From IMG/VR virus record IMGVR_UViG_3300028666_000043, positions 1 to 51,077 of that record: a DNA stretch of 51,077 bases. One strand, 5' to 3'. This stretch comes from a virus. This document shows positions 20,992-33,237 of this stretch, piece after piece (position 1 is the first letter of the stretch; every line of letters begins with the position of its first letter). Below the pieces are notes generated by a model. The model saw nothing but the letters and a program-made list of their open reading frames with translations, searched no databases and was not told the DNA's origin. A program made the position numbers and the translations under genes.

Positions 20992-21681
20992 ATGGAAAAA
21001 GTGATAGAGAAACTGATCAGATCGTCAGAACCATTGACTTCAAGTGTTGAACGAGATGATTTTATTTGTGCCAGTGAAAAAGCATTTGATTGCAAATTTG
21101 ATGGCACATCTAAATTCTATCCTTGGGAACTACCAATCAAGTTACCATCTAAGTTTAAATTAGGTGTTATTGTTGGTTCAAGTGGTTCTGGTAAATCTAC
21201 ATTACTTTCTAAATTCGGTAAAGAAGAACAACCAATTTGGTCCTTAAATAAATCTATTGTTTCACATTTTGATTCTCCAGATGATGCTATTAATAAATTA
21301 GGATCAGTTGGATTGAATACAGTCCCATCTTGGTATAAATCCTATGATGTATTATCCAATGGTGAGAAGTTTAGAGCAGACTTAGCTAGGAAGCTTAAGT
21401 CAGGTGCTGTAATTGATGAATTTACATCAGTTGTAGATAGGACAGTTGCTAAGGCTGCATCTATTTCACTTTCTAGATATATTAAAAATAATGACTTGGA
21501 AAATGTTGTTATCTCTACATGTCATCATGATATTTTAGAATGGTTGGAACCAGATTGGGTTATTGATACAGATACTGGAGAATTTTTAAATGGTTTTTTT
21601 TTGTCCGACCAGAAATCATTATCAAGATATATCGCACAAAGTATGATACTTGGAGAGTGTTTAAAGACTATCATTATTTAG
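20992..21681 (+). CDS. ABC-type ATPase domain (N-terminal part of a frameshifted ATPase-GNAT protein)
   Basis: Walker A GSSGSGKST (62-70), ABC signature LSNGE (121-125), Walker B AVIDEFTS (139-146) and H-loop CHHD (177-180) are all intact, so the ATPase should be active. There are no membrane segments. After residue 201 the frame passes a T9 run (21594-21602). A -1 step there gives VRPEIIIKIYRTKYDTWRVF and continues in frame into the GNAT ORF at 21657, for a 363-residue fusion. Reading on in frame gives an unrelated 28-residue tail instead. Either slippage makes both products or one T is missing from the assembly. Confidence 0.85.
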   Translation: MEKVIEKLIRSSEPLTSSVERDDFICASEKAFDCKFDGTSKFYPWELPIKLPSKFKLGVIVGSSGSGKSTLLSKFGKEEQPIWSLNKSIVSHFDSPDDAINKLGSVGLNTVPSWYKSYDVLSNGEKFRADLARKLKSGAVIDEFTSVVDRTVAKAASISLSRYIKNNDLENVVISTCHHDILEWLEPDWVIDTDTGEFLNGFFLSDQKSLSRYIAQSMILGECLKTIII

Positions 21682-22082
21682 ACGGTAATATCAACAAGGC
21701 AGCACGATGTTATATTGGGGTGTGGGAAGATGAGGTTGTAGCTTTTGGAGCGTCTATAACGCTTCCTAATGGTGCTTTGAAGAATGCTTGGCGAGGACAT
21801 AGGACCGTAATTCTTCCAGATTTTCAAGGTATGGGTATTGGTGTAAGATTTTCAGATGCAATTGGCCAGCTTCACTTGGATCAAGGACATAGATACTTTT
21901 CTAGAACAGCCCATCCACGAATGATTTGGTATAGAGAGCATAGTCCGTTATGGAAACCAACAAGTAAACATAAAAAATTAAGAAAAGATATAACCCATAA
22001 TAACATATTTAAAGGTCATTATGCTGATAATAAGCGTATTTGTGGTTCATTTGAATACATAGGTTCTAAGAAAATTATTTAG
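21657..22082 (+). CDS. GNAT/Mom-like acyltransferase domain (C-terminal part of the fusion)
   Basis: 141 residues from the first ATG, but the true domain starts upstream in this frame after the T9 run. RGHRTVILPDFQGMGIGVR (about 46-64) contains the acyl-CoA-binding Q-x-x-G-x-G loop. The following SRTAHPRMIWYREHSPLWKP resembles the Mu Mom DNA-modification family, which I recall being found together with such ATPases. Adenine modification is thus a possible role. The last 57 codons were replaced by a copy linked to the homing endonuclease, and the old tail survives at 22814-22987. Confidence 0.78.
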   Translation: MFKDYHYLDGNINKAARCYIGVWEDEVVAFGASITLPNGALKNAWRGHRTVILPDFQGMGIGVRFSDAIGQLHLDQGHRYFSRTAHPRMIWYREHSPLWKPTSKHKKLRKDITHNNIFKGHYADNKRICGSFEYIGSKKII

Positions 22083-22775
22083 TTCATTTATTACATTATC
22101 TTTGTATCTGATCATTAATAATTGTATGTTATTATCTTTACAATAATTTAATTTTATTGAATCTCTTAATTGTATTTTCTTAAATTCTTTTTCACCACCA
22201 AATTTACTGCGTGGTTTAAAGTGTTGTATTCCTTGAAATTCAATACATATATTATAATCTGGTAAGTAAAAATCAAATGGTAATGGCAAAATATGTCTAC
22301 AATTTGAGAATCTTTTTTGTGAAATAAAATTAATATTTTTTTTATTTAAAAATTCATTAATTATTTTCTCACCTTTTGAATCTCTACAGTGTGGACAACC
22401 ATTACCAGCTAAATGATTATGTGGTGTTTGTTCAAAATTACCATGTTTTTCACAATTGATGATTATTTTATCGCCTCTACCAGTATAAACAACATTACTA
22501 TAATTATATTTAGTACCATGTATTTTAATAGCTTTATTTATAAATTCACTTGAATTGCTGCTGGCTAAATTACATCTAGATATGAAACCACATTTTGAAC
22601 AACCTTTTTTAGATAAATGTTTATTGTGAGATTGTTCAAATTCACCATGTATTGGACAAATGATTTTAACTTTTATTTTGCTATTAATAAACTTGGTCAA
22701 AGAATAATCATATTTATCACCATGTATTAATTTAGCTTTTTCAATAAATTGTTCAGTTGTTAATGTTCTTGGCAT
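22047..22775 (-). CDS. Homing endonuclease with DUF723 zinc fingers and PD-(D/E)xK-like core
   Basis: 242 residues. Two zinc-finger repeats of the DUF723 type are seen: IICPIHGEF with GCSKC (about 38-62) and INCEKHGNF with GCPHC (about 106-130). They bind the target DNA. The nuclease core FDFYLPDYNICIEFQGIQHF (167-186) gives D, then ExQ, as in PD-(D/E)xK or Vsr-related homing enzymes. Its end overlaps the GNAT stop by 36 nt. Preceded by an ATATTTAT motif. It lies between two copies of the GNAT tail, proving recent insertion. Confidence 0.88.
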   Translation of the reverse strand: MPRTLTTEQFIEKAKLIHGDKYDYSLTKFINSKIKVKIICPIHGEFEQSHNKHLSKKGCSKCGFISRCNLASSNSSEFINKAIKIHGTKYNYSNVVYTGRGDKIIINCEKHGNFEQTPHNHLAGNGCPHCRDSKGEKIINEFLNKKNINFISQKRFSNCRHILPLPFDFYLPDYNICIEFQGIQHFKPRSKFGGEKEFKKIQLRDSIKLNYCKDNNIQLLMIRYKDNVINELNNFLRTYVFK

Positions 22776-22788
22776 CTTGGTTTTAATA

Positions 22789-22796
22789 ATAAATAT
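22789..22796 (-). promoter_or_regulatory. ATATTTAT motif, proposed late promoter
   Basis: Minus-strand ATATTTAT, 13 nt upstream of the endonuclease ATG (22775). Confidence 0.5.
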
Positions 22797-22813
22797 CTAT
22801 AAAATAGCAAAAG

Positions 22814-22987
22814 CATCCACGTATGGGATTTTATAGAGAACATTCACCATTATGGAAACCTACAAGTAAGAATAAAAAATTAAGATTGGATATTGATCAC
22901 AAGAATGTTTTTAAGAATCATTATGCTGATAACAAACGAGTTTGTTTCAGTCATGAATATATTGGAGATATAAAATTAAAATCCTAA
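22814..22987 (+). pseudogene. Stranded 3' end of the original GNAT gene
   Basis: Fifty-seven codons with stop TAA read HPRMGFYREHSPLWKPTSKN and so on to HEYIGDIKLKS, homologous over their whole length to the current GNAT end at 21912-22082 (HPRMIWYREHSPLWKPTSKH). The homology stops abruptly near 22813, with an in-frame stop just upstream. Its last 12 nt overlap the convergent gene 22976-23425, showing that it marks the original gene border. Confidence 0.85.
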
Positions 22988-23425
22988 TCGTTCACGAATC
23001 AAACGTTTAATTAATGTTTTGGTATTTTCATTAACAGATTGTTTAATACCTTTGGCCATATCAAGTGCTTTTTTGTATTCTTCATTTTTTGGATTGAAAG
23101 AGATCAGCATGTTTATAGCTTCTATTATTTGTAATCTATTTTTATGAGAACGAATTCCTTTGCCAATTATTGTATAGGAAAAACCTTCATAAATTTCTTT
23201 AGCTGATAGATTAGCTTGATCAATTTCATTAAGGTCTTCTTGATTAGGAAGTCTATATGCTGTATATGTAAAAATTTTAGGTTCTTTTTTAGTTACTTCT
23301 TCTATCGATTCATTTGCATTAGCATGTAAAGCAGCTAGGTATTTTTGAACACTACCATTAGTACAACCAACCTTGGCTCCACCATCTTTTTTATAAACAC
23401 AATTTCCTTTAACTTTATAAGGCAT
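22976..23425 (-). CDS. KGNCVYKKD-motif protein
   Basis: 149 residues. The N terminus KVKGNCVYKKDGGAKVGCTN, then SVQKYLAALHANANE, is a short motif I recall from many phage and bacterial proteins with no known function. Two conserved Cys suggest metal or disulfide. The C terminus KTLIKRLIRERLGF is the same kind of basic peptide as found at the N terminus of the neighbour at 23838, here placed at the end. Probably a virion or head-associated protein, by inference. Confidence 0.78.
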   Translation of the reverse strand: MPYKVKGNCVYKKDGGAKVGCTNGSVQKYLAALHANANESIEEVTKKEPKIFTYTAYRLPNQEDLNEIDQANLSAKEIYEGFSYTIIGKGIRSHKNRLQIIEAINMLISFNPKNEEYKKALDMAKGIKQSVNENTKTLIKRLIRERLGF

Positions 23426-26746: not shown

Positions 26747-27223
26747 ATGATTGTAAAAAAACAAGAAAAAAACAACAAAATCAAAGCCATGTATTCGTCA
26801 TCAACGATCTGTGCATCTATCTTTGATACAGTAACGAGAGATTTGATCGTTATTTTCAATAACGGTGGACAGTATAAATATCCTAGTGTTGATCTTACAG
26901 ATTATACTAGATTTGAAATTGCAGAAAGCAATGGAATTGTATTTAATACTTACATCAAAAAGAAATATACCAATTTCGAAAAGATGGATAAAATGGATGT
27001 TTCTACTATCCTTAAAGAAGTTGAAGAATTGAAAGCGGTGGATGATAAGGTTGTTGTAACTGCTAAGACAAAAGATATGTTAGAAGGAATGACATTATTA
27101 ATTGCTAGTTATATTTCAACTGGAAATATCAATAAAGATTTATTAGCTAAGATTGAAGGAAAGATTGGTGCTTTTCAACAAGCTGCTTACCCAGAAGATT
27201 TTAAAACAGCTGTTGTTGCCTAA
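26747..27223 (+). CDS. KTSC-domain protein
   Basis: 158 residues. Positions 18-74 (SSTICASIFDTVTRDLIVIF to NGIVFNTYIKKKY) match the KTSC domain, a small beta-rich module common in phages and linked by some authors to RNA or lysyl-tRNA-related proteins. Its biochemical role is not settled. A helical C-terminal region follows (KDMLEGMTLLIASYIS). Its stop overlaps the thymidylate synthase start (TAATG at 27221-27225), implying coupled translation. Confidence 0.85.
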   Translation: MIVKKQEKNNKIKAMYSSSTICASIFDTVTRDLIVIFNNGGQYKYPSVDLTDYTRFEIAESNGIVFNTYIKKKYTNFEKMDKMDVSTILKEVEELKAVDDKVVVTAKTKDMLEGMTLLIASYISTGNINKDLLAKIEGKIGAFQQAAYPEDFKTAVVA

Positions 27224-28326
27224 TGAATAACTTAGATAAACAATATACAGATTTACTTCAAGATATCTTAGATAATGGAGTTAAAAAAGGTGATAGAACT
27301 GGAACAGGAACTATCAGTGTATTTGGAAGAACCATTAGACACAAGATGTCTGATGGTTTTCCTTTGCTCACAACCAAAAGAATGGCATGGAAAGGAATCG
27401 TAACTGAAATGTTATGGTTCTTGAGAGGAGATACCAACATAAAGTATCTTGTCGAAAACAATAATAACATTTGGACTGGTGATGCTTATAAAAATTATTT
27501 AAGCAAATTTGTTCCACCTGTTTGTCCACCTAACCTAGATGTTCAACCAGATTTCTATTCACCAATGACTAAAGAAATGTTTGTTAAATCCATATTGGAA
27601 GAATCAACAAGAGGTAATGAATTTGCTAAAAAATGGGGAGATTTGGGTCCTATTTATGGACGACAATGGAGACACTGGAGTGTGATGAATAAAGTAAATG
27701 AAATTACTGGTGAAATTTTTATTGGTAATCAGTGGATTGATCAAATAGCAATTTTAATTAACGATCTTAAAAATAATCCTAATTCAAGACGATTAATGGT
27801 TAATGCTTGGAATGTTGCTGATATTGACAAGATGGTTCTTCCTCCTTGTCATTATGGTTTCCAAGTTTATACTAGAGAATTAACATTATTAGAACGTCAT
27901 TCATTATCAAATGGAAATACAGATGTTGATGAACCTAATTTAATTGATAAGTTAGATCAATTAAATATCCCTAAAAGATCAATTTCTTTAATGTGGAATC
28001 AAAGAAGTGTTGATACATTCCTTGGATTGCCGTTCAATATAGCGAGTTATGGCTTGTTATTAGAAATGTTAGCCAAAGAAGTTAATATGGTCCCAGATGA
28101 GCTTATTGGAAGCCTAGGTGATACTCATTTGTATCTTGATCATATTGAACAAGCAAAAGAACAAATAACCAGAGAACCTTTTCAATTACCAATTTTAAAA
28201 ATTGATCCACATAATGTTGTTCCTAATGCAAATATAGAAACAAACCCACATTTTTGGGATTATGGAGATTTTCATATTGAAGGGTATCAATCACACACAA
28301 CAATAAAAGCAAACTTATCAAACTAA
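27223..28326 (+). CDS. thyA: Thymidylate synthase
   Basis: 367 residues, against about 264 in typical ThyA. It makes dTMP from dUMP with methylenetetrahydrofolate. RTGTGTISVFG (25-35), the catalytic Cys209 in LPPCHYGFQ, SRR (188-190), the folate region (LGLPFNIASYGLLLEMLAKE) and GDTHLYLDH are all present. The extra length comes mainly from an insertion around residues 95-165 and one after residue 218 (ELTLLERHSLSNGNTD). It probably supplies dTMP for AT-rich phage DNA. Confidence 0.96.
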   Translation: MNNLDKQYTDLLQDILDNGVKKGDRTGTGTISVFGRTIRHKMSDGFPLLTTKRMAWKGIVTEMLWFLRGDTNIKYLVENNNNIWTGDAYKNYLSKFVPPVCPPNLDVQPDFYSPMTKEMFVKSILEESTRGNEFAKKWGDLGPIYGRQWRHWSVMNKVNEITGEIFIGNQWIDQIAILINDLKNNPNSRRLMVNAWNVADIDKMVLPPCHYGFQVYTRELTLLERHSLSNGNTDVDEPNLIDKLDQLNIPKRSISLMWNQRSVDTFLGLPFNIASYGLLLEMLAKEVNMVPDELIGSLGDTHLYLDHIEQAKEQITREPFQLPILKIDPHNVVPNANIETNPHFWDYGDFHIEGYQSHTTIKANLSN

Positions 28327-33229: not shown

Positions 33230-33237
33230 ATATTTAT
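33230..33237 (+). promoter_or_regulatory. ATATTTAT motif, proposed late promoter of terminase
   Basis: The motif lies 11 nt before ATG 33249 and 12 nt after a strong terminator. Confidence 0.6.

Follow-up and report, generated by a model that had tools for sequence, protein, structure and literature searches.

A probable end-replacing homing element in a phage ABC-ATPase/GNAT gene

Yeasts of the genera Torulaspora and Lachancea carry WHO elements at FBA1, which are defined as an endonuclease gene plus a resistance-conferring 3' region (Coughlan et al., 2020; PMC7282813). On homing, the 3' end of the host gene is replaced and the old fragment serves as the right homology arm; with further rounds of homing, clusters build up in layers. 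Sensitivity and resistance are allelic, and cleavage was tested (PMC7282813). In the mitochondria of Glomus (atp6, atp9, cox2 and nad3) and Allomyces (atp6), mobile ORFs form hybrid genes (PMC3630166). In the intronless homing of the T4 Seg and Mob enzymes, cleavage takes place at a distance from the endonuclease gene, and duplicated target ends have not been reported; in the mobE and mobA cases the host gene is split rather than repaired (reviewed in PMC2988022). Phage homing endonucleases of the DUF723/CapR type contain repeated DUF723 zinc-finger units, lie at boundaries of genetic exchange and mostly carry T5orf172 nucleases (PMC10448857). No end replacement was found in the passages of that paper bearing on it, and no phage precedent was found in the open literature searched (most subscription papers lie outside it).

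The window analysed here is the whole of a 51 kb (51,077-nucleotide) IMG/VR virus record. It encodes a terminase, a portal and a major head protein of the T4 type; the terminase is only ∼30% identical to those of the closest named phages. The target gene (20992–22082) encodes an ABC-ATPase/GNAT protein (phrog_11143), the halves of which lie in different frames and are joined at a run of nine T. What an earlier note, made from the letters of the window, had called a GNAT gene is more precisely the downstream half of this protein. A second IMG/VR contig (L001) is identical to the window across the whole arrangement, the features of which are listed below (related loci carry the prefix L).

20992–21681, plus strand: ABC-ATPase half (frame 1), with a normal stop at 21681 if no frameshift occurs (Pfam ABC_tran, 2.3e-5; phrog_11143, 6.5e-58)
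21594–21602, plus strand: T9 run, putative −1 slippery site (T_TTT_TTT) joining the ABC and GNAT frames; nine T and the −1 offset are kept in most relatives
21600–22082, plus strand: GNAT acetyltransferase half, closing with the foreign replacement end (phrog_11143, 1.5e-36; Pfam Acetyltransf_1, 1e-3)
21912–22082, plus strand: fused gene end, carried in and foreign, which forms the left part of the mobile unit; groups with the L006 and L053 carried ends in one clade
22047–22775, minus strand: homing endonuclease gene, 242 amino acids, with two DUF723/treble-clef units and a probable C-terminal Vsr-like PD-(D/E)XK nuclease (profiles and structure model)
22776–22813, minus strand: endonuclease upstream region with the motif ATATTTATTA (22787–22796), which is common to other end-replacing units; a promoter role is inferred only
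22814–22987, plus strand: stranded native gene end, starting exactly at the insertion point CATCC (HP..), from the repeat and the insertion-point comparison; the native copy in L009/L014 is the stranded one
22976–23425, minus strand: next gene, convergent, whose 12 nt overlap with the stranded end is the original junction (ORF positions; empty relatives)

The longest direct repeat found by a repeat search of the region pairs 21912–22043 with 22814–22945 (75% identical, ungapped). At the protein level, an all-against-all search of the window aligned 55 residues of both ends with 74.5% identity and an E value of 7e-27, which excludes chance; overall, the fused and the stranded end are 75% identical in both nucleotides and amino acids. 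The fused copy comprises 56 sense codons and TAG, in frame with the acetyltransferase, and the stranded copy 57 sense codons and TAA, with no internal stop and with an ATG four codons in. The 12 nt overlap with the next gene is also made by the single end of the empty relatives L002 and L009. The claims of the earlier note that the last 57 codons occur twice (fused and stranded), that the copies are homologous but diverged and that the overlap of the stranded copy with the next gene marks the original junction all held, the first being confirmed by alignment. Judged from sequence alone, the mobile unit is probably best drawn as 21912–22813, consisting of the replacement end, the endonuclease gene and its upstream region.

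The endonuclease gene is antisense to its target, and its 3' end covers the final 36 nt of the fused copy. Its product matched Pfam DUF723 (4.4e-7, above the cut-off), phrog_559 (3.1e-66) and phrog_9084 ('homing endonuclease', 2.7e-33); with its zinc-binding repeats and the family profile it qualifies as a member of the DUF723/phrog_559 phage endonucleases, a family that is widespread in phages (1029 records). The best PDB match of the structure model (mean pLDDT 80.5) was 1VSR (Foldseek probability 1.00, E = 7.9e-3, TM score 0.51 by target length), and a sequence-profile search of the PDB with the endonuclease gave no match. The Vsr-like assignment is therefore a prediction, likely to be right, that rests on the modelled fold and the conserved residues D168, E179, Q184 and H185.

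The arrangement resembles the WHO elements in consisting of an endonuclease and a replacement 3' end, with the old end stranded and with layered insertions. WHO elements, however, are built on an intein-derived endonuclease with a zinc finger and reside in yeast chromosomes, whereas the unit described here combines DUF723 units with a Vsr-like nuclease, is antisense, overlaps the target end and is found in phages; the phage elements also have two insertion points in one gene and a mirror-image form that replaces gene starts. Membership of the WHO/HO protein family was rejected, the domains being DUF723/treble clef and a Vsr-like fold. As in Glomus and Allomyces, foreign coding sequence for a C terminus travels with the endonuclease ORF and is fused to the host gene, while the native part stays downstream; in those mitochondria the nucleases are of the LAGLIDADG or GIY-YIG type and the mobile ORF is sometimes in phase with the hybrid gene, whereas that of the window is antisense. 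The mechanism is thus not unique in principle, since the yeast WHO (PMC7282813) and fungal mitochondrial (PMC3630166) elements do the same. With the T4-type enzymes the window shares a free-standing phage endonuclease beside its target, which would likewise spread by double-strand-break repair and co-conversion. T4-type intronless homing was nevertheless rejected for the window because the end is duplicated and the insertion codon is fixed for each class, although the actual cut site is inferred. Homing of a group I intron or intein was also rejected, as the target frame reaches its own stop (22080–22082) before the insert; splicing is unnecessary because the carried end completes the target gene. 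Compared with the DUF723/CapR-type enzymes, the DUF723 units are alike and the nuclease domain is Vsr-like instead of T5orf172.

Viral contig scans yielded 80 GNAT-gene loci (IMG/VR relatives) and 79 endonuclease loci. In profile searches of the 80 GNAT loci a second full end was present in 7/7 loci with the endonuclease (L032, the twin of the window, L040, L051, L052, L053, L065 and L088) and in 0/73 without it. The earlier note had named as its refutation relatives that lack the endonuclease and still show two tail copies; no such relative was seen. One of the seven (L006 = L040) has three ends and two endonucleases, and two endonuclease-less lineages retain only a scrap of a second end, ∼23–25 codons long. 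These counts are not independent, as some loci are duplicates or close relatives. The window relatives compared are all metagenomic contigs; in cultured phages the ABC-GNAT relatives are only distant (<45% identity), and when 50,697 phage records were searched with the DNA of the locus, the endonuclease alone was matched.

Which of the two ends is native was read from the close relatives L009 (empty) and L014 (occupied). These are nearly identical up to GG(T/C)CATAG, beyond which the fused end of L014 is clearly diverged from L009; the stranded end of L014 starts at ATACTACCAGATTTCC and is nearly identical to L009, with high identity running on into the next gene. By segment, L014 and L009 are 93.1% identical in the gene body, 98.0% and 92.6% in the stranded pieces and 75.9% and 83.0% in the fused pieces. 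In this pair, therefore, it is the stranded end that is native, the fused one being foreign. The stranded part of L014 differs from L009 by 11 synonymous and two non-synonymous changes, as expected if the stranding is recent. No near-identical empty relative of the window itself was found, the best single-end match being ∼79% identical in the body, so its polarity rests on L014/L009, on L006/L004, on the tree and on the shared types of fused and stranded end.

The locus with three ends records more than one event. The L006 gene body is L004-like (95.6%) up to GHR, and its first stranded piece has an L004-like core (93.1%; seven synonymous and no non-synonymous differences) that gives way at RTA|HPRM to an end sharing 94% protein identity with the fused end of the window; an endonuclease 76% identical to that of the window and then a third end follow. 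The simplest reading, inferred but likely, has a window-type element inserting at RTA|HPRM and, at a later time, an element of the second class inserting ∼100 nt upstream at GHR|..ILPD. The later insertion would then have displaced the earlier end downstream, and successive elements probably stack with the newest beside the host gene. Loss can also be recognized. In L004 an FSH-type end is followed by ∼35 nt reading in reverse as KYDENIIERLNHI, which aligns with the 3' end of the endonuclease gene of L014 (0/2000 shuffles scored as well), and then by a ∼23–25-codon scrap of a GSF-type end that overlaps the end of the next gene; L004 is thus inferred to be, in all likelihood, the relic of a past invasion from which the endonuclease has been deleted. 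L058 has an end 97% identical to the carried end of L051 and no endonuclease, and its downstream DNA aligns with that beyond the stranded copy of L051.

The carried ends were more alike than the stranded ends in all five class-A comparisons (carried versus stranded identity: window–L006, 88.9 versus 75.6%; window–L053, 81.2 versus 71.9%; L006–L053, 80.5 versus 68.1%; window–L051, 77.0 versus 71.9%; L053–L051, 72.6 versus 67.4%). The carried ends of the window, L006 and L053 form one clade (support 98/90), which the host (gene-body) tree rejects (AU p = 0.0014); a sister relationship of the two ends of the window is also rejected (AU p = 0.016), and the stranded class-A ends as one clade gave p = 0.32. 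The clades were named after the identities had been seen, the end alignment has only 150 columns and the bootstrap of the body tree had not fully settled. With these caveats, it is likely that the carried ends follow the endonuclease and not the virus.

There are two insertion points in the one gene, each a fixed codon for one endonuclease class. In class A (window, L006, L051/L052 and L053) the stranded copy begins exactly at CATCC, after the upstream region of the endonuclease; in class B (L006, L010 and L014) it begins just before ILPD, ahead of the stretch QGMGIG, which we take to resemble the acetyl-CoA loop of GNAT enzymes. Immediately 3' of the class-A insertion point, HP(R/K)M-I is found in the fused end of 4/4 genomes and HP(R/K)M-G in their stranded end (4/4); among 55 distinct single ends the same residue is G in 40 and I in ten. 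This residue is tightly linked to a second motif, I occurring with GSF/GSH and G with FSH/YSH/WSH/FSY, so the ends form haplotypes. A GSF end is carried over an FSH end in the window, L010 and L053, and FSH over GSF in L014. The change from G to I at the junction is plausibly the one that confers resistance, an inference from sequence alone.

The remaining claims of the earlier note can be judged against these results. That a homing endonuclease replaced the end of its target and left the old end behind is supported by the survey (7/7 versus 0/73), by L009/L014 and by the relic. That the insert probably came from a related phage together with a target end is also supported, for the window itself only indirectly. 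The proposed resistance of the replaced end has nothing behind it but the M-I versus M-G difference at the insertion site in the 4/4 class-A genomes.

Taken together, the unit 21912–22813 is very likely an end-replacing homing element. Sequence comparison shows that insertion is at a fixed codon, that the fused end is foreign and the stranded end native, that end and nuclease are inherited together, and that invasion can recur and be followed by loss; cleavage, specificity, resistance and mixed infection are inferred. The element would pair a gene end that the enzyme probably leaves intact with the endonuclease gene, the two overlapping tail-to-tail. During mixed infection the endonuclease would cut an unoccupied ABC-GNAT gene at ..SRTA|HPRMG.., and the break would be repaired from the occupied genome, with the shared gene body as left homology and the stranded end of the donor as right homology. 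The replacement end and the endonuclease would thereby be copied into the break and the body of the recipient joined to the foreign end, restoring the gene with an altered site; the recipient's own end would be stranded past the endonuclease, where it could act as the right homology arm in the next round. Conversion to the left may extend further, as in the Lak-B phages described below.

Three other explanations were considered. A tandem duplication of the gene end within one genome, with an endonuclease inserted between the copies later by chance, would account for direct repeats at a single locus. It is very hard to reconcile with the two copies of the window not being sisters (AU p = 0.016), with the absence of two full copies from all 73 endonuclease-less relatives and with L014, where only the stranded copy matches the empty relative. 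The stranded end might instead be a maintained silent cassette or a separate short protein, the endonuclease acting as a recombination switch for the acetyltransferase end. In favour of this, all stranded copies are open frames, that of the window with its early ATG, and switching between the two linked haplotypes (I..GSF/GSH and G..[FYW]S[HY]) would alter the protein. Against it, endonuclease-less relatives have no cassette apart from the two ∼23–25-codon scraps, the carried end tracks the endonuclease across hosts and the layering in L006 is in the order expected of successive invasions; we consider this explanation very improbable as well. The open frames may nevertheless count against the main reading, since strict neutrality would not keep them for long; compared with empty relatives the stranded ends show few differences, mostly synonymous, as expected if stranding is recent.

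The third explanation is ordinary intronless homing of the T4 kind, with a cut elsewhere in the neighbouring gene and long co-conversion, the stranded end being an accident of one old event. The endonuclease is indeed free-standing, it belongs to a widespread family and most members of that family have no end duplication. However, in several lineages the stranded copy always starts at the same codon for a given endonuclease class, which places the insertion at the putative cut site, unlike in the T4-type free-standing enzymes (PMC2988022), and the arrangement recurs in unrelated genes; this account too is thus very unlikely. End replacement by a homing element remains the preferred reading. 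A bolder version of it, towards which the balance does not quite tip, holds that end replacement is a recurrent and overlooked mode of phage homing, in which endonucleases travel with an alternative gene start or end as antidote, and that the enzyme going with either of the linked ABC-GNAT end types (I..GSF/GSH and G..FSH) cuts the other type, so that the gene is repeatedly rewritten back and forth.

The same arrangement was found in unrelated genes. Among the 79 related endonucleases, copies of a gene end lay on both sides at five loci, four of them distinct. L117 has a 39-residue and L118 a 25-residue end copy, in both cases with the endonuclease antisense, the L118 gene having a weak head-tail-adaptor profile match; which end is native and which foreign was not determined. 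In L121/L124 (a PTH2 gene) and L181 the gene starts, not the ends, are duplicated as a mirror image, again without the native and foreign copies being determined. A pair at L154 (17 residues, E = 2e-5) was weak and probably due to chance, and was left out of the count. As only ∼5/79 related endonuclease loci outside ABC-GNAT show end duplication, homing in most of the family is probably of the ordinary intergenic kind and end duplication is likely to be a minority arrangement. One endonuclease neighbourhood per phage was checked for flanking end copies in ten phages (Flavobacterium FpV4; Klebsiella KP13-7, phiKp_21 and RCIP0023; Salmonella Munch; Escherichia coli EC22.5-2 and 121Q; Cronobacter GAP32; Lak-B7; and an uncultured 735 kb phage), and only Lak-B7 was positive.

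The Prevotella Lak-B phages are named and, like the other Lak phages, are complete metagenome-assembled genomes. In Lak-B an ABC-ATPase gene is followed by an endonuclease and then by a stranded 115-residue end. Lak-A1, A2 and C1 have just one ABC-ATPase; the stranded end shares 93–94% identity with it, against only ∼40% for the fused gene taken in full. Neither Lak-A1 nor Lak-C1 has an insertion at this site. When the DNA of Lak-B1 is aligned with that of Lak-A1, the match ends ∼20 codons into the gene and restarts at the stranded end. The endonuclease frames of Lak-B1 and Lak-B7 contain in-frame TAA codons.

If the reading is correct, a free-standing homing gene needs neither intron nor intein to invade coding sequence, since it brings a spare end along, and in phages the full cycle (empty, occupied, doubly occupied and relic) can be read from natural genomes. 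Comparison of carried with stranded ends points to the bases that should decide between cutting and resistance. The 3' part of a phage gene can also differ in history from the rest, giving disturbed gene trees and apparent pseudogene fragments beside endonucleases.

The motif ATATTTATTA or its variant TATTTATA precedes the endonuclease in nearly all of the compared end-replacing units, and also lies shortly before several of the phage's own genes (e.g. at 33231, 39965 and 28825). It is possible that it is a late promoter also used by the endonuclease, although this is only an inference.

The junction between the halves of the target gene was also compared. A GG-T9-G site with a −1 offset between the ABC-ATPase and GNAT frames is conserved in the window (21590–21604) and in relatives L002–L015, L022 and L033–L092. 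The run is exactly nine T long in most relatives; a few (L043/L044, L060 and L085) have GGAAATTTTA, which gives the classic heptamer A_AAT_TTT in phase, and L063/L066 have ten T, with ABC and GNAT fused in frame. The halves are likewise fused in frame in the outgroups L090, L091, L093–L097 and L099–L111. The ABC-GNAT fusion is thus apparently, and on sequence alone probably, made by conserved programmed −1 ribosomal frameshifting. No consistent signal of a stimulatory RNA structure was found 3' of the T9 slippery site (z = +1.2, −0.3, +0.2 and −2.5).

Several further observations were made at these loci. In L058 (1495–1815) the ABC-ATPase half lacks its middle, including the P-loop, and the GNAT half is intact. 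In L013/L015 (4469–6730) two plus-strand genes, without an endonuclease, separate the GNAT end from a 23-codon remnant of a further end; these genes might be cargo that was brought in or mark an old insertion that has lost its endonuclease. The two gene starts of L121 (3873–5583; MKQVKNNEKL... and MKNLQINNSKL...) are readable only with TAG as glutamine, and this virus is likely to use a recoded TAG. The downstream ClpB-like ATPase gene of L010 (6396–8243, minus strand) has an intein-like insertion at the Walker A region (VGKC...NGILSHNTYL). The thymidylate synthase of the window (27220–28320) is ∼90 residues longer than the matched profile stretch, which suggests an in-frame insertion.
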